From Erysipelotrichaceae bacterium (GTDB taxonomy: Bacteria > Bacillota_I > Bacilli_A > Erysipelotrichales > Erysipelotrichaceae), in assembly GCA_017539105.1 (NCBI GenBank), contig JAFYHQ010000041.1:1-48561 (forward strand): a stretch of DNA of 48,561 nt, read 5' to 3'. The notes beneath the pieces were generated by a model. That model saw only the letters and a list, made by a program, of their open reading frames with translations. It was not told the origin of the DNA and did no database searches. Positions 31,451 through 46,920 of the stretch are shown one piece after another (positions within the stretch are counted from its first letter, which is position 1; every line of letters begins with the position of its first letter). Made by a program: the position numbers and the translations under genes.

Positions 31451-31481
31451 AAACACGGATGAGAACATGCCGTGTTTTTTT
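31451..31481. terminator. Terminator between converging genes
   Basis: AAACACGG (31451-31458) pairs with CCGTGTTT (31470-31477), T continuing to 31481. It lies between the lipoprotein gene and the converging GTPase gene. Confidence 0.75.
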
Positions 31482-33912
31482 ATAGATCAAGCAGTTTTCT
31501 TAGTTCTTCCAAAGGACGGTTGAATACCCGATCGGAATGCGTCATGTTTTTACGCATGTTGCTGTAACGGGCAAGAAATTCCCGGCTGGAGAGACGGAAT
31601 GCTCCAGCAGAGAAGACGGACAGCTGTTCCAGATTGTCGGATGTGACGACGATGATGCGATACCTGTCGCCCAGTTCTTTGACTTTTTCCTCGATAAACA
31701 TATCAGCGGTCTGCCCGTTTCTGGTATAGACAATCGTGATATTGTCTCGTTCAGATACGGTCGCTTTCGCGCTTTCCTGCAGATAGGCATCAAAAATCAG
31801 AACCAGGGAAGCCGAGACATAGCCGGCAAAATCGCATGCCAGATCGATGACTTTTTCCCTTCCCATGGTCAGATTATCCAACGGAGCATCTTCCATTGCG
31901 TGCAGGACATTGTAGCCATCGATCATATATAACAATTCTTTTGTATCGATGTTTTCTTTCTTCTTCTCTTCCAAACGCGGATCGTGTTTTTCCACATAAC
32001 GCGGACGCGGCTTATACAGGGAGTTCCATACCCGTTTCAGCTCTTCTTCGTTGATCGTGCGTGCCCTGTGTTTTTCTATCGGCTTGTAGTCGCTGAAATG
32101 GTTTTTCAGGTCAATATGCATGATTTCTTCGACTTCTTCCGGAGCGAAATAGGTTCCTGCTCCGTTTCTGGTAAAGATCGATCCTGCCTGTTTGTATGGG
32201 TCGTTGCGATAGTCGTAGGCGATCTGCCGGATGACTTCGTCTTCGTTGCGACAGCGGTCATAGAAGCTTCCTTCGATCTCGTGGGAAAAATCATCATGGT
32301 ACCTGTTACGCAACGAAAGGATCAAGTCGTTAAAACCGATCTTAGGGATCTTTGCCATGATCATGCTATCTTCGATATCAAAGACATACTGCCTGGCAGA
32401 GAGTTCGGAAATGATGCCATTCAGTGTTTTCGGATCTGCCGTCAGAGACAGGAGATAGTAAGGTTCCAGCAGATAATTCTTCGCTTTGGTCAAAGCCTGG
32501 CGGATCGCCCGGTTAAGTGCCTGGATGAGGTCGCCTCCTTCGGTGTGCTTGAGATGCGTCCTGGTTTCCAGGATCTCGATCTCGATATTGTCCAACGGAG
32601 AATCCGTCAGGATACCGCAGGGACGGCGATGTTCCAGATAATCCATCAGAACGGAGAATTCTTTTCTGGCTTTCACATGATAAGAGGGATACGGACGCAG
32701 CATCACCAGGACCTCGGCATAGTGTCTCAAGGGTTCGTAATGACCCACGCCGTAGACTTCTTCCTCGATGCTTTCTTTATAGGAAATCAATGTCTGCGAA
32801 TAGTCGACATCGATGTTGAAACGTTCCTTGATCAGCTGACGGATGAACTCTTTCTGCAATTCTCCCGAAAGGTCGATGCTGACGGAATCATTGAGTACGA
32901 TGTTCAGTTCAGGGAACTCTTCATTCAGTACGGAAATGCGGCGATACAGTTCGTTCGAATCCAGATCGGATAGCAGACGGTAGGACAAAGCATCAGGCTT
33001 GCTGCTGTCTTCGCAGAACAGGGAAGGCAGGAAGATGCCGGCTTTCAGTCCCTGCAGGCCTTTTACGGCACAAAGATCATTGCCTGTAACCTCGCTGACC
33101 TGCGTTGTTTTGTTTCCGTTGAACTGGACGATCTGCGAGATCTGATGATCCCCGAATGTATCCCGGTTTTTCAGCGTTCCGGAGAATACTTTCACATGGG
33201 CGTATTCATCGATCTTATAGATGTAGGCTTTCAGATGATCAGTCGGAGTCGGGACATCGATATAGCGGCTGAGGAAATCCAGCAGTTCCTCGACGCCTTC
33301 TTCATGAAGAGCGGAACCGGAAAAGACGGGATAGAAAAGGCCTTCCCGAAGCGCATCTGCCACCTGACTGTCATCGATATGGCCATCCTGCAGATAACGA
33401 TCCAGCAGTTCCTCATGATCCAAAGCGACGTGTTCTTCGATCTCCTGATAAGCTACCGCAGAGAGCGACAGGTTTCTGTGTATCTCTTCCAGGATCTCTT
33501 CATAAGAGCGATGCGAGATATCCATCTTGTTGATGAAGATCAGGATAGGGATTTCAAGACTCTTCAGATAGCGGAAACGATGGATCGTATCCGCAGGGAT
33601 CGAAGCAGTGCCGTCGATGATCAGGATCGCGGCATCCAGGATCGCAAAGCTGCGGTTGACTTCTCCGATGAAATCCAGGTGTCCGGGCGTATCGACGTAG
33701 ATGAAATCTTTGTTTCTGTAAGAAAAACGCGCTTCTTTGGCAAAGACGGTGATTCCTTTTTTGCGTTCAAAAGCATTGAAGTCTAAAAAAGAGTCTTCAT
33801 GGTCGACTCTGCCGCTTTCTTTTAAAACGCCGCACTTGTGCAGGATACATTCCGAAAGCGTGGTCTTGCCGCCATCGACATGCGCATAGGCTCCGATTAT
33901 GATGCGGCTCAT
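31480..33912 (-). CDS. TetM-like ribosomal GTPase fused to a YacP/Rae1-type NYN nuclease
   Basis: An 810-residue two-part protein. Residues 1 to about 640 are an EF-G/TetM-like translation GTPase: G1 AHVDGGKT (10-17), KKGIT (51-55), G3 DTPGH (74-78), G4 NKMD (128-131) and G5 SGSA (198-201), then the EF-G-like domains II-V. After a charged linker (about 640-657), residues 658-808 form a complete NYN domain of the YacP/Rae1 family: YMIDGYNVLHA (Asp665, Asn668), LIFDAYLQE (Asp708), RNGQTADMFIEE (Asp737), VVTSDNLEQLSVFSAGA and SSREFL. Rae1 cuts mRNA in the ribosomal A site; TetM-like GTPases bind the same site. AAAGGAG precedes the ATG. The gene is divergent from vapBC. Tetracycline protection is possible but not implied. 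Confidence 0.92.
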   Translation of the reverse strand: MSRIIIGAYAHVDGGKTTLSECILHKCGVLKESGRVDHEDSFLDFNAFERKKGITVFAKEARFSYRNKDFIYVDTPGHLDFIGEVNRSFAILDAAILIIDGTASIPADTIHRFRYLKSLEIPILIFINKMDISHRSYEEILEEIHRNLSLSAVAYQEIEEHVALDHEELLDRYLQDGHIDDSQVADALREGLFYPVFSGSALHEEGVEELLDFLSRYIDVPTPTDHLKAYIYKIDEYAHVKVFSGTLKNRDTFGDHQISQIVQFNGNKTTQVSEVTGNDLCAVKGLQGLKAGIFLPSLFCEDSSKPDALSYRLLSDLDSNELYRRISVLNEEFPELNIVLNDSVSIDLSGELQKEFIRQLIKERFNIDVDYSQTLISYKESIEEEVYGVGHYEPLRHYAEVLVMLRPYPSYHVKARKEFSVLMDYLEHRRPCGILTDSPLDNIEIEILETRTHLKHTEGGDLIQALNRAIRQALTKAKNYLLEPYYLLSLTADPKTLNGIISELSARQYVFDIEDSMIMAKIPKIGFNDLILSLRNRYHDDFSHEIEGSFYDRCRNEDEVIRQIAYDYRNDPYKQAGSIFTRNGAGTYFAPEEVEEIMHIDLKNHFSDYKPIEKHRARTINEEELKRVWNSLYKPRPRYVEKHDPRLEEKKKENIDTKELLYMIDGYNVLHAMEDAPLDNLTMGREKVIDLACDFAGYVSASLVLIFDAYLQESAKATVSERDNITIVYTRNGQTADMFIEEKVKELGDRYRIIVVTSDNLEQLSVFSAGAFRLSSREFLARYSNMRKNMTHSDRVFNRPLEELRKLLDL

Positions 33913-34056
33913 AAAAACTCCTTTCTATCGTTTCTCATATGAATCTATTATATATGATAGCGAATCGCTTTTCGTAAAACAGATAAATGTAGGAATTTCC
34001 GATTTTAAAGTGAATAAAGAATAGAGGAGATTGTAAGATCGCTGATGGAAATCCTC

Positions 34057-34085
34057 TTGAAATGATATAGTGCATGCTATATACT
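34057..34085 (+). promoter_or_regulatory. vapBC promoter and operator
   Basis: TTGAAA (34057-34062), a 17-base gap and TATACT (34080-34085). The inverted repeat ATATAG (34065-34070) / CTATAT (34077-34082) overlaps the spacer and -10 box, a good place for VapB-VapC autorepression. Confidence 0.65.
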
Positions 34086-34106
34086 TTGAATGAGGAGAAC
34101 GAAACA

Positions 34107-34337
34107 ATGGAGACTACAAGAGTATTTACGAGCGGAAGATCTCAGGCAGTCAGGATACCGAAAGCTTTCCGTTTTACGGAAAACGAGGTGTACATCAACA
34201 AAATCGGCGAGGCCATCGTACTGACGCCAAAGAAATATCTGGCAGAAGCGTTCAGACAGGGGATCGCCATGCTGGAAGATGATTTCATGAATGAGAAACT
34301 GCCCGAAAGCATCAGCGTCGCAAGAGAAGAACTATGA
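34107..34337 (+). CDS. vapB: VapB-type antitoxin (AbrB/MazE fold)
   Basis: A 76-residue antitoxin. The N-terminal METTRVFTSGRSQAVRIPKAFRF is the swapped-hairpin DNA-binding domain of the VapB family (SGRSQAVRIPK core). The acidic C-terminal part would occupy the active site of the toxin. ATG 34107 has GAGGAG upstream; a longer frame from TTG 34074 would overlap the promoter. Its stop overlaps the toxin start (ATGA). Confidence 0.92.
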   Translation: METTRVFTSGRSQAVRIPKAFRFTENEVYINKIGEAIVLTPKKYLAEAFRQGIAMLEDDFMNEKLPESISVAREEL

Positions 34338-34732
34338 CATATATGCTTGACACCAACGCCATCATCATGGCGGTGAAACATCCGGATTGGCCGACTTGCG
34401 CAAGGATCATCGAACATCTGGGAAAGGATATCTGTATTTCAGCTATCACTTATGGCGAACTGGAATATGGGATCCAAAAAAGCAGGAATCCCAGCCGGAA
34501 TAAAGCAGCGATCATGCAGATCTTGTTCGGGATACCGATCCTTGATTTTGATATGAAAGCAGCGGAGCATTTCGGAGATATTTTTGCCGATCTGGAGAGC
34601 AGGAACGCGCGTATCAGCGACAGGGATATGCTGATAGCGGCTCACGCGAGATCCCTGGGCTACACCGTTGTCACAAACAATACCGGGGAATTCTCCCGTG
34701 TGAAAGACCTGAAGATCACAGACTGGAAGTGA
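34334..34732 (+). CDS. vapC: VapC-type PIN-domain ribonuclease toxin
   Basis: A 132-residue PIN nuclease. The acidic metal-binding set is complete: Asp6 in YMLDTN, Glu42 in TYGELEYGI, Asp96 and Asp98 in ISDRDMLIAAHA, plus the late VVTNNTGEF. Family members cut initiator tRNA or rRNA loops. It is translationally coupled to vapB by a four-base overlap and followed by a strong terminator. It looks intact and probably functional. Confidence 0.94.
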   Translation: MTYMLDTNAIIMAVKHPDWPTCARIIEHLGKDICISAITYGELEYGIQKSRNPSRNKAAIMQILFGIPILDFDMKAAEHFGDIFADLESRNARISDRDMLIAAHARSLGYTVVTNNTGEFSRVKDLKITDWK

Positions 34733-38860: not shown

Positions 38861-38894
38861 AGGAAGGTTTGATGTTATGATGTTGATGTTATGA
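38861..38894 (+). promoter_or_regulatory. Five-codon leader ORF translationally coupled to the PIN-like gene
   Basis: AGGAAGG (38861-38867) is ideally placed not for the main start (23 bases away) but for ATG 38877, which reads M-M-L-M-L and stops at TGA 38892-38894, overlapping ATG 38891 of the main gene as ATGA. The layout arises from an 11-base direct repeat, TGATGTTATGA (38870-38880 and 38884-38894). Confidence 0.55.
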
Positions 38895-39547
38895 ATTTAT
38901 TTACTGTAAAAGCGCATGCTTATATGATTGACAGCGAGAATGTCGGCTCGACGTGGGCGGAACTTCTGAAAAACGAAGAGAAGTGTGATTTTTATATCTT
39001 CGTTACCGAGAACGCCAAGAGCCTGAATTTCTCTTTACTCAAAGATTTGACCGAAAACCAGAAACACCGGATCAATATCATCGAATGTGAACCGGGCAAG
39101 AATTCTCTGGATTTCTATCTTTCTTCTTATCTCGGATACCTGATCGGTTTGGGGAAACATTCCTCTTACACGGTCGTATCGCAGGATACCGGTTTCGATC
39201 ATGTGATCGACTACTGGAAGAGACAGGGGCTGGAAGTGGAAAGGATCAATACGAAGCCGGAGAAGACCAATACCAGAGGAAACCGGTCACGCAACACCCA
39301 GACCCAGACCGTCAAAAAGAACGAGAATTCCGAAACCAGGATCATTCCGAAGAAAGACCCGACTCCGATCAAGAACGAAAACAAAGCTCCTGTAAAGACT
39401 GAAAACAAACCGAACCGAAACAACAGGAACAGGACACAGCCGAAAGAGAAACAGAATCCGGTTCAGGAAAATCCGAACGAAAAACCGGCGGCCTCGCAGA
39501 ATCACAATCAGAAACGCAATTATCGCAACAAAAAGAATAAGGAATAA
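38891..39547 (+). CDS. PIN/NYN-like nuclease domain with a basic disordered tail
   Basis: A 218-residue protein. Residues 1-122 form a PIN-like domain with the acidic set Asp14 and Glu16 in YMIDSENVG, Asp74 in NSLDFYLSSYLG, and Asp99 and Asp103 in VSQDTGFDHVI, as expected for a metal-dependent RNase. Residues 123-218 are a low-complexity tail made almost only of Asn, Lys, Arg, Gln, Pro, Glu and Thr, strongly basic and probably unfolded, suited to RNA binding. ATG 38891 is the only in-frame start and depends on the upstream leader. A terminator overlaps its stop. The target is unknown. Confidence 0.82.
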   Translation: MNLFTVKAHAYMIDSENVGSTWAELLKNEEKCDFYIFVTENAKSLNFSLLKDLTENQKHRINIIECEPGKNSLDFYLSSYLGYLIGLGKHSSYTVVSQDTGFDHVIDYWKRQGLEVERINTKPEKTNTRGNRSRNTQTQTVKKNENSETRIIPKKDPTPIKNENKAPVKTENKPNRNNRNRTQPKEKQNPVQENPNEKPAASQNHNQKRNYRNKKNKE

Positions 39548-40573: not shown

Positions 40574-41572
40574 TTATTCCGCGGATTTCCGTTTGATCAT
40601 ATCGATCAGCCACTGGCCGGATGTCGAGAAATCATCGTATTCGAATCCGCTGACTTTCAGAACGCTTGGCTTGATCGCGGCGGAAGATTCCGATACCTTC
40701 GAGAAGTTCCACATGACATGGGAGATCCCGTTCTCTTCCAGGAAATCGATCCAGAGATCGCCTTCATCGAGGTCATAAGGATAGTTGCCTGTCGAAGCGG
40801 TCACGCCATATTCGCTCACAAAGATCGGCAGGTCTTTATCGATGGCGCGTTTCACGTTGTCCCGTGATTCCTGCTTGTGGGAAGCGGAATAGAAGTGCAG
40901 CGCATAGAGAAGATTCGGATAATCCAGTGGATCATTGGCAGCGATATCAACCCGTGACGACCATTCCGGCGTTCCGACGATGATCAGAGAATCCGGATCG
41001 TTGTTCCGGATGATTGGAATGATCACGTTCGCATATTCCTTGATCGTCGGCCAGTCGACCCCGTTCGGCTCGTTGCAGATCTCGTAGATCACGTTTTTCT
41101 TGTCCTTGCAGTCTTTCGATGCCTGATCAAAGAATTCTTTCGCATCTTCGATGTATTTGTTCGGATCGCCATCGGAAAGGATGTGCCAGTCCAGGATCAC
41201 ATACATGTCGTTCTTTTCTCCGCATTCGACACCTTTCATCATCACCTGGTAAAGCTTTTCCTTATCTCCTCCGGTACAATAGCCGAAGGAACCCATGCCA
41301 TAGGTATACAGCGCCATACGGAAGACATTGACACCCATCACATGCGCGAGATCGTGGAAGGTATCATCCGTGATATAACGCTCGGAACCCGAGACGCCAT
41401 AACTGGAAATGCCTCTTAAGATCACAGGGTTTCCATCTTCTCCGCACAGCTGGCTTCCAACGACCTGAAGCTGTCCTCTGGAAGACGGACGATCTTTACC
41501 ATCGAATGATTTCTTCGCTCCGCAGCCGATCAGTACAAGCAGACATAGACAGATCATTATCATTTTCTTCAT
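40574..41572 (-). CDS. GH5-family endoglucanase lipoprotein
   Basis: A 332-residue lipoprotein (lipobox VLIGC, Cys17). The family 5 barrel is clear: LRGISSYGV, VNVFRMALYT, VILDWHILSDGDPN, the acid/base Glu168 in YEICNEPNG, LYALHFYSASH, and the nucleophile Glu254 in IFVSEYG, closing with VMWNFS. This fits subfamily 2 cellulases. Acting outside the membrane, it would cut beta-1,4-glucan to oligomers for uptake. Its start overlaps the stop of the large GH94 gene (ATGA), so it is the third gene of the minus-strand operon. Confidence 0.92.
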   Translation of the reverse strand: MKKMIMICLCLLVLIGCGAKKSFDGKDRPSSRGQLQVVGSQLCGEDGNPVILRGISSYGVSGSERYITDDTFHDLAHVMGVNVFRMALYTYGMGSFGYCTGGDKEKLYQVMMKGVECGEKNDMYVILDWHILSDGDPNKYIEDAKEFFDQASKDCKDKKNVIYEICNEPNGVDWPTIKEYANVIIPIIRNNDPDSLIIVGTPEWSSRVDIAANDPLDYPNLLYALHFYSASHKQESRDNVKRAIDKDLPIFVSEYGVTASTGNYPYDLDEGDLWIDFLEENGISHVMWNFSKVSESSAAIKPSVLKVSGFEYDDFSTSGQWLIDMIKRKSAE

Positions 41573-44442
41573 AACAGCACCTCCAGTGTATGTGTTTTAT
41601 TATCATCAGGAATCGTGATTCTTGCGTTTGTTTCTTTTCCGTCATAAAGATAGACGGTCTGAGGATTCGTCCTGTAATCATTGACCTTTCTGATCGTGAT
41701 TTCGATCAAAGTATCGCTGATCCGCAAGGTATAAGCGAAGGAATCGCCGTTGAGGATCGGATCGATGATCAGGGCATCCCCATCGAAATGCAGCCCCAGT
41801 ATCTCGTAATAGGCCAGGGTCAGCCAGGAAGCGGTTCCCGAGAGGATCGGGCCGATGCCTTCTCCCGTCTCGGAATTGTTGTATTGGGTACAGAAACGAG
41901 GATTTCCTTTTAAAACATAAGGATTCTCCAAAGTCTTGTATGGAAGCGTCTTGTCGATCATGAAGAAGGCAAGATCTTTTAAGCGTTTCGCAAGCTTTTC
42001 ATCCCTGACGGTTTTCGCTTTCTTCAGACAGGCGACCGTGCACATCATCGCGGCATGCTTGAAGACGCCGCCGTTTTCCCGGTCACCAGGGAAGTAGAAG
42101 GAAGAACCTGTCACGATCCCCAGTTTGTCATAATCGACCGGCGTGACCAGTTTCAGACCTGCGTCTGTCTTGAGATACCTGTCGATGATATCCAGCATCC
42201 TGTCGATCTTCTCTTCATCGGCGATATCTGCCAGCACAGGCCAGGAGAAGCCGTTGAGATAGTAGGTGCCATCGATGCTTTCATCCAGGGATAGTCCATC
42301 TTTTGTGGAGCCCAGATAGGTGTATTCGCGTCCGTCATTGATCAGGCAGCGCGCATAGTAGTCTTCGATCCAGGCGTTCCGGTTCACCGAATCAGCGACT
42401 GTTTCGGAAATCATCCTGCATTTGTCTGCCAGTTCATATTCCTTCAGAGCTTCTGCCATTTCTGCGAGTTCATCAACAGCGATCTTCAAGAGACAGGCGT
42501 TCATCACCGATTCGCTCTGCTCGTTCTCCCATGCGACACCGAACGGCTGTCCCTTTTCTTCCAGTTGCCTGTAGTAGAGCTCTTCTTTTTCCGGGCCTTC
42601 CAGGACATTCTTATCCAGCCGCAGACAGTCGTTCCAGTCTGCCTTATCCAGAAGAGGCAATCCGTGTTTTCCTACGGAAATCATCCCGGAATATGTGACG
42701 ATACTGTCAAGCGTTTTGTACAGAGGCCTTGTCTCACTGGAGCCTGCGACTTTGATTTCTTCTTTCAGGAAGTCAAGATCTCTATTCAAGGTATAGTAAC
42801 GGTAGACAGCCTGTACCAGCCACAGCGCGTCATCCGAGCACATGCCCGGTTCCTTTCCGCGTGTCGTGAAATTATGATAGGCATAACCGAAATCAAAGAC
42901 GTTTTCCGCCCAGGATCTTAACAGCTTCCTGACCAGTTCATCCTGGCCTGAGGCATGCATATAGTACATGGAAGCGAAGATATCCTGGATCTCCCTGAAT
43001 CCGGTTTCCCGGTAGGATTTCTGCGTCCAGGCAAAGGAACGGGAGACATAAGTCTGATACAGGACCTGGAATGGAAGGTTCCTGGAAAGGTAGGAATCGC
43101 TGTTGGAATCGTCGTTGTGTACCTGGATAAAGGAATAGTAACGGTCGTTGTCTTCGATCATCTTCTGATAGGTTTCTTCCAGATGATCCGGTTCCCTATA
43201 TTTTTCATATAACGCATCCAGATGCGCATCAAACAGTTCCCTGACATCCGTTTCATCGTCATCCATACCGACGAAGCAGTCGATGGCTGTTTCCTTTTCA
43301 AGATGGAAGGACTTGCCCATCGCAAAGAACGCTGCCTGACGGCGGGAATGGGCATTGGACAGTTCCGCGATCATCTCCGGCTGTTCCAGAGAACCGGAAC
43401 CGATGAAGTCATACAGGCTGGAGCAGTATTCTTCCATGGCTTCTCCATCCTGCAGCAGCATCGCGAAGCGTTTCTCGCCGTTGCATTCTTTCGGCTGATG
43501 ATGCGCCGTCATGGCGATCGGTCTGCCGTTCCTGTAATAGAGTTCGCTTTCTACGACCACATTCGCATAGATGATGTCTCCTGCCAACGTGCCGGGATCG
43601 GTGATCCCGAACATTCCTGTCGCAACGATACGCAGATCTCTTGGCTCATCCTTAAGATTGATGATTTGGATACGTTGCGCCTCGATAGCGCTGGGCATCC
43701 CTTTTTCCTGCGGAAGCAGGAAGATCGTACGGATAATACGCAGATCGCATTCGGTTTCATAAGTGATCACGGTCCGGTTCTGGCTGTGGCAGCAGTACGC
43801 CTTTTTGACGTTGTGCTTCACATCCAGGGAATAGAAGATCTGCCTGCCGTTTTCCGTGAGATAGAACTGCCGGTTCGCCGGTTCGCCATTCTCTTCCGGA
43901 GAAAGCACATAGCGGGTCGCCAGGACCTGTTTCTCCTGTTTCCCTCGAAAGGAACCGCGTCCGAATTCATCCAGTACGGACTTTGGCGTGGACTGCAGAC
44001 AGTCCGCATATTCCGACCGGTCTCCCAGCAGCAGGTTGACCCCGTAATGGGAACCGACATGATAGCCTTTCAGATCGATGACCAGTTCCCCGTTTTCATT
44101 CAAGGAACCGGGTGATGTTTCGATTCGTTCACGGATCTGTTTCAGATGATCGATGACGGTTTCATCACAGTCGATTTTCTTTTTTCCTGCATAAACGCCT
44201 GAATCATCGATCAGGATATTCTCGTTCTGCTGCTTCAATACATCATAAATGACAGGATCATTGATGATGTGCATACAGATCGGAGCGTAATGGTCAAGGC
44301 CGGTATAGACGATGACCTTGTCTCTGTTCGCATTCTTAAACAGCGCATCGCTGTGTCCATGCAGACGATCCCTGAATACCTGTTTCGCGTAGCCAAGCGC
44401 ATCGATCTTCTGTTTCCTGCTGTTTTCTATTTCAAAATTCAT
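41569..44442 (-). CDS. Large GH94-like glycoside phosphorylase
   Basis: A 957-residue cytosolic protein of the GH94 type. The (alpha/alpha)6 barrel contains KADWNDCL with the expected general acid Asp605, AENVFDFGYAYHNFTTRGKEPGMCSDDALWLVQAV, and the phosphate-site-like ENGGVFKHAAMMC and GEGIGPILSGTASWLTLA. At about 957 residues it is longer than cellobiose phosphorylases (about 800) and shorter than 1,2-beta-oligoglucan phosphorylases (about 1,100 as I recall), so the substrate is probably not plain cellobiose. ATG 44442 has AAGGAG upstream; a longer frame has none. It lies between the cellobiose phosphorylase and GH5 genes. Confidence 0.85.
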   Translation of the reverse strand: MNFEIENSRKQKIDALGYAKQVFRDRLHGHSDALFKNANRDKVIVYTGLDHYAPICMHIINDPVIYDVLKQQNENILIDDSGVYAGKKKIDCDETVIDHLKQIRERIETSPGSLNENGELVIDLKGYHVGSHYGVNLLLGDRSEYADCLQSTPKSVLDEFGRGSFRGKQEKQVLATRYVLSPEENGEPANRQFYLTENGRQIFYSLDVKHNVKKAYCCHSQNRTVITYETECDLRIIRTIFLLPQEKGMPSAIEAQRIQIINLKDEPRDLRIVATGMFGITDPGTLAGDIIYANVVVESELYYRNGRPIAMTAHHQPKECNGEKRFAMLLQDGEAMEEYCSSLYDFIGSGSLEQPEMIAELSNAHSRRQAAFFAMGKSFHLEKETAIDCFVGMDDDETDVRELFDAHLDALYEKYREPDHLEETYQKMIEDNDRYYSFIQVHNDDSNSDSYLSRNLPFQVLYQTYVSRSFAWTQKSYRETGFREIQDIFASMYYMHASGQDELVRKLLRSWAENVFDFGYAYHNFTTRGKEPGMCSDDALWLVQAVYRYYTLNRDLDFLKEEIKVAGSSETRPLYKTLDSIVTYSGMISVGKHGLPLLDKADWNDCLRLDKNVLEGPEKEELYYRQLEEKGQPFGVAWENEQSESVMNACLLKIAVDELAEMAEALKEYELADKCRMISETVADSVNRNAWIEDYYARCLINDGREYTYLGSTKDGLSLDESIDGTYYLNGFSWPVLADIADEEKIDRMLDIIDRYLKTDAGLKLVTPVDYDKLGIVTGSSFYFPGDRENGGVFKHAAMMCTVACLKKAKTVRDEKLAKRLKDLAFFMIDKTLPYKTLENPYVLKGNPRFCTQYNNSETGEGIGPILSGTASWLTLAYYEILGLHFDGDALIIDPILNGDSFAYTLRISDTLIEITIRKVNDYRTNPQTVYLYDGKETNARITIPDDNKTHTLEVLL

Positions 44443-44490
44443 ATCTTTCTCCTTGGGTAAAAAAGGCGAACTCTTCATCCGCCTTATCTG

Positions 44491-46920
44491 TTACATAATC
44501 ACTTCGACGTTCACGTTCTTCCTGTTTGAAAGAGGAATGACATTGCCATCGACATGCTGACCATCGACGATCAGTTCTTTCACGCCCTTCTGTGCCTTGT
44601 GAGGGTTCCTGATGACGATATGATACATCGTTCCCCTGAACAGACGGTTGACCGTGTATTCTTTGACCTTGGAAGGGATGCATGGATCGATGCGCAGACC
44701 GTTGTAGTCCGGCTGAATGCCCAGGATCCCCTGCGTCAGTACGGTAAAGGTCCAGGCGGCCGTACCGGTCAGCCAGGAGTTCTTTCCCTCGCCGAATGTC
44801 GGCGCATCCTTGCCCGCGACCATCTGGCAGTAGACATACGGTTCCGTGCGATGGATCTCGGAGATTTCCTCTAAGAAAGTCGGGCAGGTCTTCTTGTACA
44901 GTTCGAAAGCCCGGTTGCCATGTCCCATGACCGTTTCCGCAAAAATGATCCAAGGATTGTTGTGGCAGAAGATACCGGCATTCTCTTTGTATCCCGGAGG
45001 ATAAGAGGAGATTTCGCCAAGATTGAGTCTGTATGACGTATAAGCAGGGTTCAGCAGAACGATGCCGTATCTGGTTTCCAGTCTTTCCTGAACAGAATCC
45101 AGCGCTTTCTGCGCCTCGCCTGTTTCAACGCCAACGCCGGCCATGATGCACATGCCTTGCGGTTCGATGAAGATCTGACCTTCCGTATTGTAATGGGAAC
45201 CGATCTTCTTTCCAAACGCGTCATAAGCCCGCAGGAACCAGTTTCCATCCCATCCGTCTTTCAGGATGGCTTTTTCCATCTCTTTGACGGCTTTTTCTGC
45301 TTTCTTAGCCTCGTCTTTCTGATCCAGATGTTTCAGCAGCTGGGCATAGGCTTTGCCATACTTCACAAACATGCCGGCAATGAAGACCGATTCCGCGACA
45401 GGACCTTCGCTTGGTCCGGTGATCTGGAAAGATTCGCCCGGATGTTTCGAGAAACAGTTCAGGTTCAGGCAGTCGTTCCAGTCGGCTCTACCGATCAATG
45501 GAAGCTTATGCGGACCGAGATTATTCAATGTATAGTTGAAGCTTCTTCTCAGATGTTCCAGCAAGGTGTCTGCAAGTTCCGGCTTGTTGTCGAAATCGAC
45601 AGTCTCATTGAGGATACCCCAGTCACCCGTTTCTCTGATGTAGGCATCCGTGCAGGCGATCAGCCACAGCGGGTCGTCATTGAAACCGCCACCGATGTCG
45701 GAATTGCCTTTCTTGGTCAGAGGCTGATACTGGTGATATGCGCCTCCGTCTTCCTTCTGCGTCGCGGCGATATCCAGTATTCTCTGTCTCGCTCTTTCAG
45801 GAATCATGCTGACGAAACCAAGCAGATCCTGGCAGGAATCACGGAAGCCCATGCCTCTGCCGATACCGGACTCATAGTAGGAAGCCGATCTTGACATATT
45901 GAACGTCACCATGCACTGGTAGGCATTCCAGATGTTGACCATGCGATTGACTTTATCGTTCGGAGTATTGACTTCGAATCTTGATAAGAGCTTATCCCAG
46001 AACTTGTTTAATACTTTCAGCCCTTCATCGAACTTCTTGTTTGTATCATATTTGCCGATCAGTTTGTGGGCAGGTTCCTTGTTGATGACGGATGGAGCGA
46101 TGAACTTCTTGCTTTCCGGAACTTCCACGTAAGCCAGGCCGAAGATGACATCGTAAGTCTCTTCCGCTTTCAGATCCAGATGGATGTGATGCGCGCCGAC
46201 CGGCTGCCAGCCATGAGCAATCGAATTCGAGCATTTTCCATTCGTTACAGCCAATGGAGCGGCAGGAGTGCCGTAGACACCCATGAATGCGTCTCTGGAA
46301 GTATCGAAGGAATTCACTTTTCTGTTCGCAAAGAATGCGGCATAGTGGTTCCTTCTTTCCCGGTATTCCGTCTTGTGATAGATGATCGAGCCTTCCACCT
46401 CGACTTCCCCGGTCGAATAGTTTCTTTGGAAGTTGGTCGTATCGTCCTGGGCATCCCATAAGCAGAACTCTACAAAAGAGAATAAATCGATATTTCTTTC
46501 TTTTTTATCTTTATTCCTGACGGTGACCCTCATCAGCAGGATGTTGTCGTTCTTCGGGACATAGAGTTCCTGAGAGACCTCGATCTTGTTTTTGGAACCG
46601 GTAATCGTGGAATAACCCATGCCGTGACGGCATTCGTAGCTGTCCAGCTTCGTACCGACCGGACGGCATCCGGGATTCCATATGGTCTTATTATCCTTGA
46701 TATAGATATGGAAACCATCCTGATCCAAAGGAAGATTGTTGTATCTGTAACGCGTGATCCTTCTGAGTCTTGCATCCTTATAGAAAGCATAGCCTCCCGC
46801 CGTATTCGACAGCAACGCAAAGAAGTCGTCGCTGCCTAAATAGTTGATCCAAGGAAGCGGCGTTTCCCAGTTGGTGATCACATATTCTCTGTTTTTATCA
46901 TCAAAATAACCGTATTGCAT
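44491..46920 (-). CDS. Cellobiose phosphorylase (GH94)
   Basis: An 809-residue enzyme that splits cellobiose with phosphate into glucose 1-phosphate and glucose, saving ATP. The start [29 protein letters not shown] is typical. [15 protein letters not shown] (Arg360 and Asp365 in the sugar site), [10 protein letters not shown] with the general acid Asp483, and [24 protein letters not shown] (phosphate site region) are all present, and length matches. It is first in the minus-strand operon, its promoter and operator lying at 46938-46984. Confidence 0.96.

Follow-up and report, generated by a model that had tools for sequence, protein, structure and literature searches.

A single open reading frame on the minus strand of contig JAFYHQ010000041.1 (assembly GCA_017539105.1, Erysipelotrichaceae bacterium; positions 1 to 48,561, the whole stretch being referred to here as the window) encodes, at 31480-33912 and from an ATG start, an 810-residue protein in which an intact GTPase of the EF-G/TetM type, with domains I to V, is joined to a complete YacP/Rae1-type NYN nuclease. 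This architecture, confirmed by domain searches and structure prediction, bears out the original prediction, made from the sequence alone, of one continuous frame with all five GTPase motifs followed by a complete NYN domain with its landmarks. Many gut Firmicutes seem to possess Rae1 in this fused form, and on balance we favour the view that it is a GTPase-delivered form of this ribosome-dependent mRNA nuclease.

In the GTPase half, Pfam GTP_EFTU matches residues 4-218 (E=4e-44, 150.9 bits, well above its cut-off), Pfam domain II matches weakly and below cut-off, and the motifs are G1 AHVDGGKT (10-17), G2 near T55, G3 DTPGH (74-78), G4 NKMD (128-131) and G5 SGSAL (198-202). The C-terminal part matches NYN_YacP at residues 663-793 (E=2.9e-32, 112.4 bits against a cut-off of 24.6), with the landmarks IDGYN (664-668), FDAYLQ (707-712), TADMFIEE (735-742) and TSDNLEQ (757-763). 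The AlphaFold2 model has a mean predicted local distance difference test score (pLDDT) of 87.3, with disorder at 613-622 and 633-656 flanking a short helix at 622-633. H78 and the G1, G3 and G4 residues are invariant across 38 full fusions, as are the four acidic residues D665, D708, D737 and D759, which are likewise invariant in a set of 81; the linker, taken from H599 to D665, is 65-129 residues long in 81 sequences. The ratio of nonsynonymous to synonymous substitution rates (dN/dS) relative to the nearest relative, L009, is 0.05-0.14 across all domains, with dS near saturation (G domain 0.141, domain IV 0.053, NYN 0.053), and in one distant pair (L050/L049) it reaches 0.53 in domain V and 0.70 in the linker. 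Every domain of the fusion is under purifying selection, which, together with the same architecture in 80 of 80 kept loci, indicates that the fusion is not due to chance.

The catalytic role in B. subtilis YacP belongs to D7 and D81. When the last 166 residues of the window protein are compared with solved chains by phmmer, B. subtilis YacP (5MQ8/5MQ9) is the sole match (E=4e-13), and D665, D708, D737 and D759 align with D7, D53, D81 and the TSD aspartate, so the link to Rae1 that had been drawn earlier holds. The NYN fold is assigned from Pfam, phmmer and the model, because the structural alignment (VIA) covered mainly model residues 1-593. The profile match in the window protein ends at position 137 of 166, and the profile end (at least 159), which holds an LEKxRR-like tail printed for seven free YacP proteins, is reached in 45 of 45 free YacP versus 18 of 54 fused matches, one of the 54 ending at profile position 75. 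By its number, R166P, which is among the rae1 mutations taken by the authors as loss of function in B. subtilis (PMC6613710), falls at this end, and its position there, together with the frequent absence of the tail from fused NYN domains, fits the use of another docking device.

Published descriptions present Rae1 as an A-site endoribonuclease (PMC6613710, PMC10100781) that destabilizes mRNAs in a translation-dependent way (PMC10100781). That the closest solved relative of the fused nuclease is such an enzyme tells against RNA quality control or maturation, a rather improbable alternative in which the GTPase would recognize defective, hibernating or assembling ribosomes and the nuclease would cut rRNA or tRNA instead of mRNA. 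A proposed role of NYN proteins in rRNA and tRNA maturation is cited by Atkinson 2015 (PMC4342817), the long linker would permit rRNA targets, and rlmB, like sigH, is a habitual neighbor of free yacP (rlmB in 12 of 15 loci and sigH in 15 of 15, within 1.5-kb flanks). Near the fused genes, however (80 loci, flanks of up to 8 kb), sigH is found at one locus and rlmB at four, leaving 76 of the 80 without an rlmB match, and neither gene is matched within the 48.6-kb window. It follows from this contrast that the fused gene has mostly left the place of the free one.

The GTPase half has an EF-G/Tet-like fold, its highest structural Z being with EF-G (38.0) and its resemblance to the Tet profile scoring 100% in hhalign, and to this extent its earlier description as "TetM-like" stands. 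The term is too loose, however, because the domain is, as judged from sequence, a separate subfamily that differs in its domain IV loops and falls short of the NCBIfam Tet cut-offs. Scores for the window protein are 237.8 against NF012153 (cut-off 775), 141.7 against NF033148 (1100) and 111.7 against NF012155 (1420), and two further fusions score 389.5 and 408.8 against the cut-off of 775, while a Tet-type control protein of the same order (L169) passes both NF012153 (822.9) and NF033148 (1285.4). The EF-G cut-off is failed as well (TIGR00484, 147.5 bits against 659.4), and the window's genome also has an EF-G-length homolog (704-residue frame). In domain IV the Tet loop YSPVSTPADF is absent, with THLKHTEGGD at that position. 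The structural alignment to TetM ends at model residue 593 and TetM residue 639, and the linker begins where the TetM chain stops; hhalign, which stopped at Tet column 621, did not align the linker helix with the C-terminal helix of Tet. In work by Arenz from 2015 that Tet(M) helix is said to touch the decoding center. It is important for Tet(M) function (PMC4750697), and nothing on it was found in the accessible part of the review PMC8161019.

These data also bear on whether the fusion is a resistance factor for tetracycline or another ribosome-directed drug to which an RNase has been added, as Atkinson 2015 suggested and as a database label implies. One of two RefSeq-labeled fused homologs, WP_306784676.1 of Agathobacter rectalis, is named "TetM/TetW/TetO/TetS family tetracycline resistance ribosomal protection protein", as was anticipated in the original prediction, the other, from Monoglobus, being a "translation factor GTPase family protein". 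Even with this label and the profile similarity over the GTPase part, such a role is very improbable, and tetracycline resistance as the main function is disfavored by the failed cut-offs, which the same-order Tet-type protein passes, by the missing Tet loop, and by the coexistence of Tet-type proteins with the fusion in four genomes of the window's order (G042, G043, G044 and G048, the protein of G043 being the one scored with NCBIfam). It is disfavored too by the rarity of the gene on plasmids (2 of 72,556 records match at least 80% of the protein) and phages (2 of 50,697). Two large plasmid-type replicons carry the fusion, and nearly full-length matches occur in two unannotated fecal "Bacteriophage sp." records; given this scarcity, the fusion is taken to be mainly chromosomal. 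A mobile or viral gene was also considered and rejected, since none of the best 79 of 141 IMG/VR relatives matches beyond residue 604. On a megaplasmid of Ligilactobacillus salivarius (L277, 3001-4920), a protein labeled TetM/TetW/TetO/TetS matches window residues 1-601 at 30.8% and is possibly a member of the unfused subfamily.

The fusion is common in Clostridia and in the window's order. A scan of genome contigs with a profile of 38 fusions gave at least 586 relatives of any kind, which were ranked by similarity to full fusions, and the best 80 loci are all fusions of 807-988 residues from the first in-frame start, in records titled Lachnospiraceae, Oscillospiraceae, Ruminococcus, Eubacterium, Erysipelotrichaceae, Holdemania and others. 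Among named records the closest is L058, at 66% identity, from an uncultured Erysipelotrichaceae that belongs to the genus sample of the window (G026). In an even sample of the window's phylum, NYN_YacP occurs in 17 of 195 genomes (16 over cut-off), 15 of them in the window's order. The GTPase subfamily (E<=1e-170) is present in 164 of 391 genomes of the class of Eubacterium xylanophilum (Clostridia), and among the 150 matches listed for that class, 132 (131 genomes) lie in frames of more than 750 residues. From the 18 that do not, five split or apparently cut pieces were left out (G654, G641, G365, G445, G659) to give 13 unfused genomes, outside of which stand G348, G525, G557, G563, G576, G649, G685 and G702, whose GTPase frame is not listed. 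In two of these pieces (G365:C2:126183-128761 and G654:C121:1080-3630) the GTPase and NYN occupy two adjacent frames, through a frameshift, a sequencing error or a natural split.

The survey of how often the two halves occur together, which the original prediction had called for, pointed to a fused-or-free pattern. NYN_YacP over cut-off is found in 98 of 148 Clostridia genomes, 53 with a fused form (a frame of more than 300 residues, four being short at 351, 481, 734 and 789), 45 with a free one (168-217 residues) and none with both, where about 16 co-occurrences would be expected if the two were independent; the associated P of 1.3e-11 ignores kinship among genomes and hence is not a true probability. 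A second NYN match in G450 (21.3 bits) is under cut-off and was not counted as free. Among 128 relatives of the window, from the same genus to the same class, 92 have NYN_YacP and 91 of these a single copy, with pieces in G007, G024, G056, G112, G116 and probably G077 read as fusions broken at contig ends. The genome with two fused copies (G031; C149 and C198) is 3.4 Mb with 6% contamination and is possibly a mixed bin. In the window's genome, which is 89% complete, the only YacP is the fused one. As the two forms are never found together over cut-off, the fusion is in most cases the one YacP that its genome has, although the genomes are often incomplete bins in which single absences mean little.

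The trees place both halves of the fusion apart from their free counterparts. In a tree of 63 NYN domains (40 fused, 15 of the 45 free, 6 short and 2 of middle length; bootstrap not settled), a 100/99 branch parts all 15 free domains from all 48 fused or shortened ones. A quick GTPase tree, with SH-aLRT (Shimodaira-Hasegawa-like approximate likelihood ratio test) support only, contained 28 fused (of about 118), 14 unfused, 5 Tet-type and 4 other GTPases, and in it the 28 fused form a clade (98*) beside the 14 unfused GTPases of about 650 residues; fused and unfused group together (100*) apart from the five Tet-type proteins, while the unfused clade alone is unsupported (40). The unfused GTPases stop about where the linker begins. 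Taken together, the two trees and this end point fit a single fusion event from a non-Tet GTPase subfamily.

Seven of the 13 unfused GTPase genomes have a free YacP, with the two genes on different contigs or more than 300 kb apart, and the other six have no YacP at all, a pattern that tells against a strict partnership of GTPase and YacP. It lends something to an unlikely but not negligible alternative, in which the fusion holds two partly independent enzymes, a GTPase with its own EF-G/EF4-like task and an NYN domain in Rae1's old role, and serves co-expression more than GTP-gated delivery; the survival of NYN after loss of the GTPase in the window's genus points the same way. Against such independence stand the fit to one fusion event with the fusion kept in 53 of 148 Clostridia, the constraint on domain IV, which in the closest pair equals that on NYN (dN/dS 0.053 each), and the frequent lack in fused NYN domains of the tail of free YacP.

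In the window's genus, 32 of 36 sampled genomes have NYN_YacP, as 22 full fusions, two pieces (G007, G024), two forms of about 600 residues and six of 201-218 residues, and the other four, which are 57-93% complete, yielded no GTPase and no NYN. The 600-residue forms keep domains I-III, linker and NYN with domains IV and V gone, and in the 201-205-residue forms only the linker helix and NYN remain. These short forms fall at three places within the fused side of the NYN tree, namely the 600-residue pair (one of which, L038, also has an rlmB-like match nearby) and a clade of five, both within the genus, and L045, which is sister to all other genus rows. In five genomes the 201-205-residue gene lies between a uracil-DNA-glycosylase-family gene and dus, as does the full-length gene L022, and the full-length genes L024 and L025 lie beside dus; these shared flanks make loss of the GTPase at its original locus the likeliest course. 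The GTPase has thus been cut back about three times in the genus with NYN retained, once at an identifiable syntenic locus, and selection there keeps the nuclease. Hence the idea that the GTPase delivers the nuclease needs qualifying, since the GTPase cannot be indispensable where six genomes are left with no more than the linker helix and NYN, and two others with domains I-III plus NYN.

Targeted delivery of a nuclease to the ribosome is the reading that would best account for these observations. The translational GTPase would dock at the factor site and insert domain IV into the A site of ribosomes in which that site is free (paused, stalled or drug-blocked). The NYN domain, attached behind the C-terminal helix through a flexible linker of 65 residues or more, would cut mRNA within the A site or close to it, with GTP hydrolysis releasing or rearranging the factor so that nuclease and target could meet. 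The fusion would in this way take the role of free Rae1 in other Firmicutes, namely mRNA decay that depends on translation and possibly also rescue; ribosome binding, A-site cleavage, GTP gating and the order of events are all deduced from the architecture and its relatives.

Several points weigh against this proposal. Domain IV would itself fill the A site, such that nuclease and GTPase would have to work one after the other or in separate locations, and a linker of this length could extend to nearly any point of the ribosome, so that the position of NYN cannot be read from the anatomy. No YacP of any kind is found in 50 of 148 Clostridia, and 42 of 45 free-YacP genomes lack the subfamily GTPase (three carry it). 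The unfused GTPase occurs without YacP in 6 of 13 genomes, which implies that it has some work of its own. Within the genus, domains IV-V are missing from 2 of the 32 genomes with NYN and the whole GTPase from 6 of the 32, and the long branch that bears the genus in the GTPase tree (1.12) may reflect weakened constraint. We put forward, tentatively, a fuller history in which, across much of Clostridia and Erysipelotrichales, Rae1 became a GTP-driven ribosome factor in a single conversion, a dedicated non-resistance GTPase finding ribosomes with an open A site and handing their mRNA to the tethered nuclease, and in which the window's genus is now shedding the GTPase stepwise to yield a free nuclease with a new docking helix.

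No neighbor cluster is common to more than 12 of 81 loci of the fused gene (41 of 80 loci span at least 18 kb, which gives them 8-kb flanks of almost full length; in 77 of 81 the fusion was anchored) and PADLOC gave no defense-system match, so that the defense role once suggested finds no support. An anti-phage or stress-suicide effector that shuts down translation is accordingly the least credible of the readings weighed: ribosome-directed nucleases can in principle be toxic, and a VapBC-like pair adjoins the fusion in the window, but the short flanks that were compared for the genus loci contain no homolog of this pair, and presence in 53 of 148 Clostridia also speaks against it. The pair itself, divergent from the fusion gene, consists of a MazE/AbrB-type antitoxin (87 residues) overlapping a PIN toxin (132 residues) at 34074-34732 (+), and with a 218-residue PIN7-domain protein at 38891-39547 (+) and the fusion it brings three PIN/NYN-type nuclease domains within about 8 kb. 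At 40574-46920 (-) lie a GH5 cellulase-type gene and two adjacent GH94 (cellobiose phosphorylase-type) genes, of which the 969-residue one is much diverged. An Rfam search of the window returned no regulatory RNA match. No common theme emerges from ten scanned proteins neighboring unfused GTPases, which are DNA ligase (two), SLH/GHL10 (three), Hsp90, BrxL, fumarase/lyase, SpoIVA and GH32; the BrxL (BREX Lon-like) gene adjoins the unfused subfamily GTPase of G435 (L195, 851-2878).

Features of the fusion gene in the window, with the basis of each assignment
Feature	Position	Strand	Basis
Whole coding sequence, GTPase-linker-NYN fusion, 810 residues + stop	31480..33912	-	Frame, Pfam, model
Shine-Dalgarno-like AAGGAG, 5 nucleotides 5' of ATG	33918..33923	-	Read from sequence
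Domain I (G domain), residues 1-220, G1-G5 intact including H78	33253..33912	-	Pfam; sequence
Domains II + III, residues 221-378 (borders approximate)	32779..33252	-	Profile alignment to Tet proteins; model
Domain IV, residues 379-487 (borders approximate)	32452..32778	-	Loops GHYEPLRHY (390-398), KHTEGGD (455-461)
Domain V + last helix EEVEEIMH, residues 488-600 (borders approximate)	32113..32451	-	Unfused relatives end here
Flexible linker, residues 601-657, conserved helix EELKRVWNSLY (622-633)	31942..32112	-	Model; kept in NYN-only forms
NYN_YacP (Rae1-type) nuclease domain, residues 658-795; D665, D708, D737, D759	31528..31941	-	Pfam, phmmer
C-terminal tail NRPLEELRKLL, replaces LEKxRR-like tail of free YacP	31483..31527	-	

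The literature searched, mostly at the level of listings, yielded no experimental work on the fusion and one mention of it, in PMC4342817, where Atkinson 2015 noted the same architecture for Tet proteins from ten Clostridiales species and conjectured RNase-assisted action and resistance; Condon 2018, on the distribution of Rae1, may treat fusions. The architecture is therefore known, while the fused-or-free pattern, the fit to a single non-Tet origin and the loss series were not met in that literature. If the proposed function is correct, mRNA on paused ribosomes is controlled in many gut Firmicutes by a factor that databases can wrongly list under antibiotic resistance, and such labels would both inflate resistome counts and hide a translation-control system. 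The fused and free distribution, the unfused GTPases and the natural loss series make the contribution of the GTPase to an A-site nuclease directly testable.

Among known systems, EF-G and EF-G2 have the same domain order and fold as the fusion GTPase, which nonetheless scores well below the EF-G cut-off. Tet(M), Tet(W) and Tet(O) likewise consist of domains I-V closed by a helix at a similar position, but the fusion differs in its domain IV loops, fails their family cut-offs and runs on into linker and nuclease. The unfused KHTxGGD GTPases of about 650 residues in some Clostridia (L172-L174, L182-L195) are of the same subfamily and next to the fused clade, without the linker and NYN. With Rae1/YacP the fusion shares the NYN_YacP domain, the four acidic residues and the DGYN/TSD motifs, yet Rae1 is a free protein of about 170 residues, whereas the fusion has 810, with NYN C-terminal to the GTPase, another genome location and the tail lost; the free YacP of Clostridia adjoins sigH and mostly rlmB and has the LEKxRR-like tail. 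The proteins of Atkinson 2015 are the most alike, being a Tet-like GTPase and YacP NYN in one frame as in the window, but those were filed as Tet, while the Erysipelotrichaceae-like member described here belongs to a far more widely spread group, is not Tet by cut-off and is the sole YacP of its genome.

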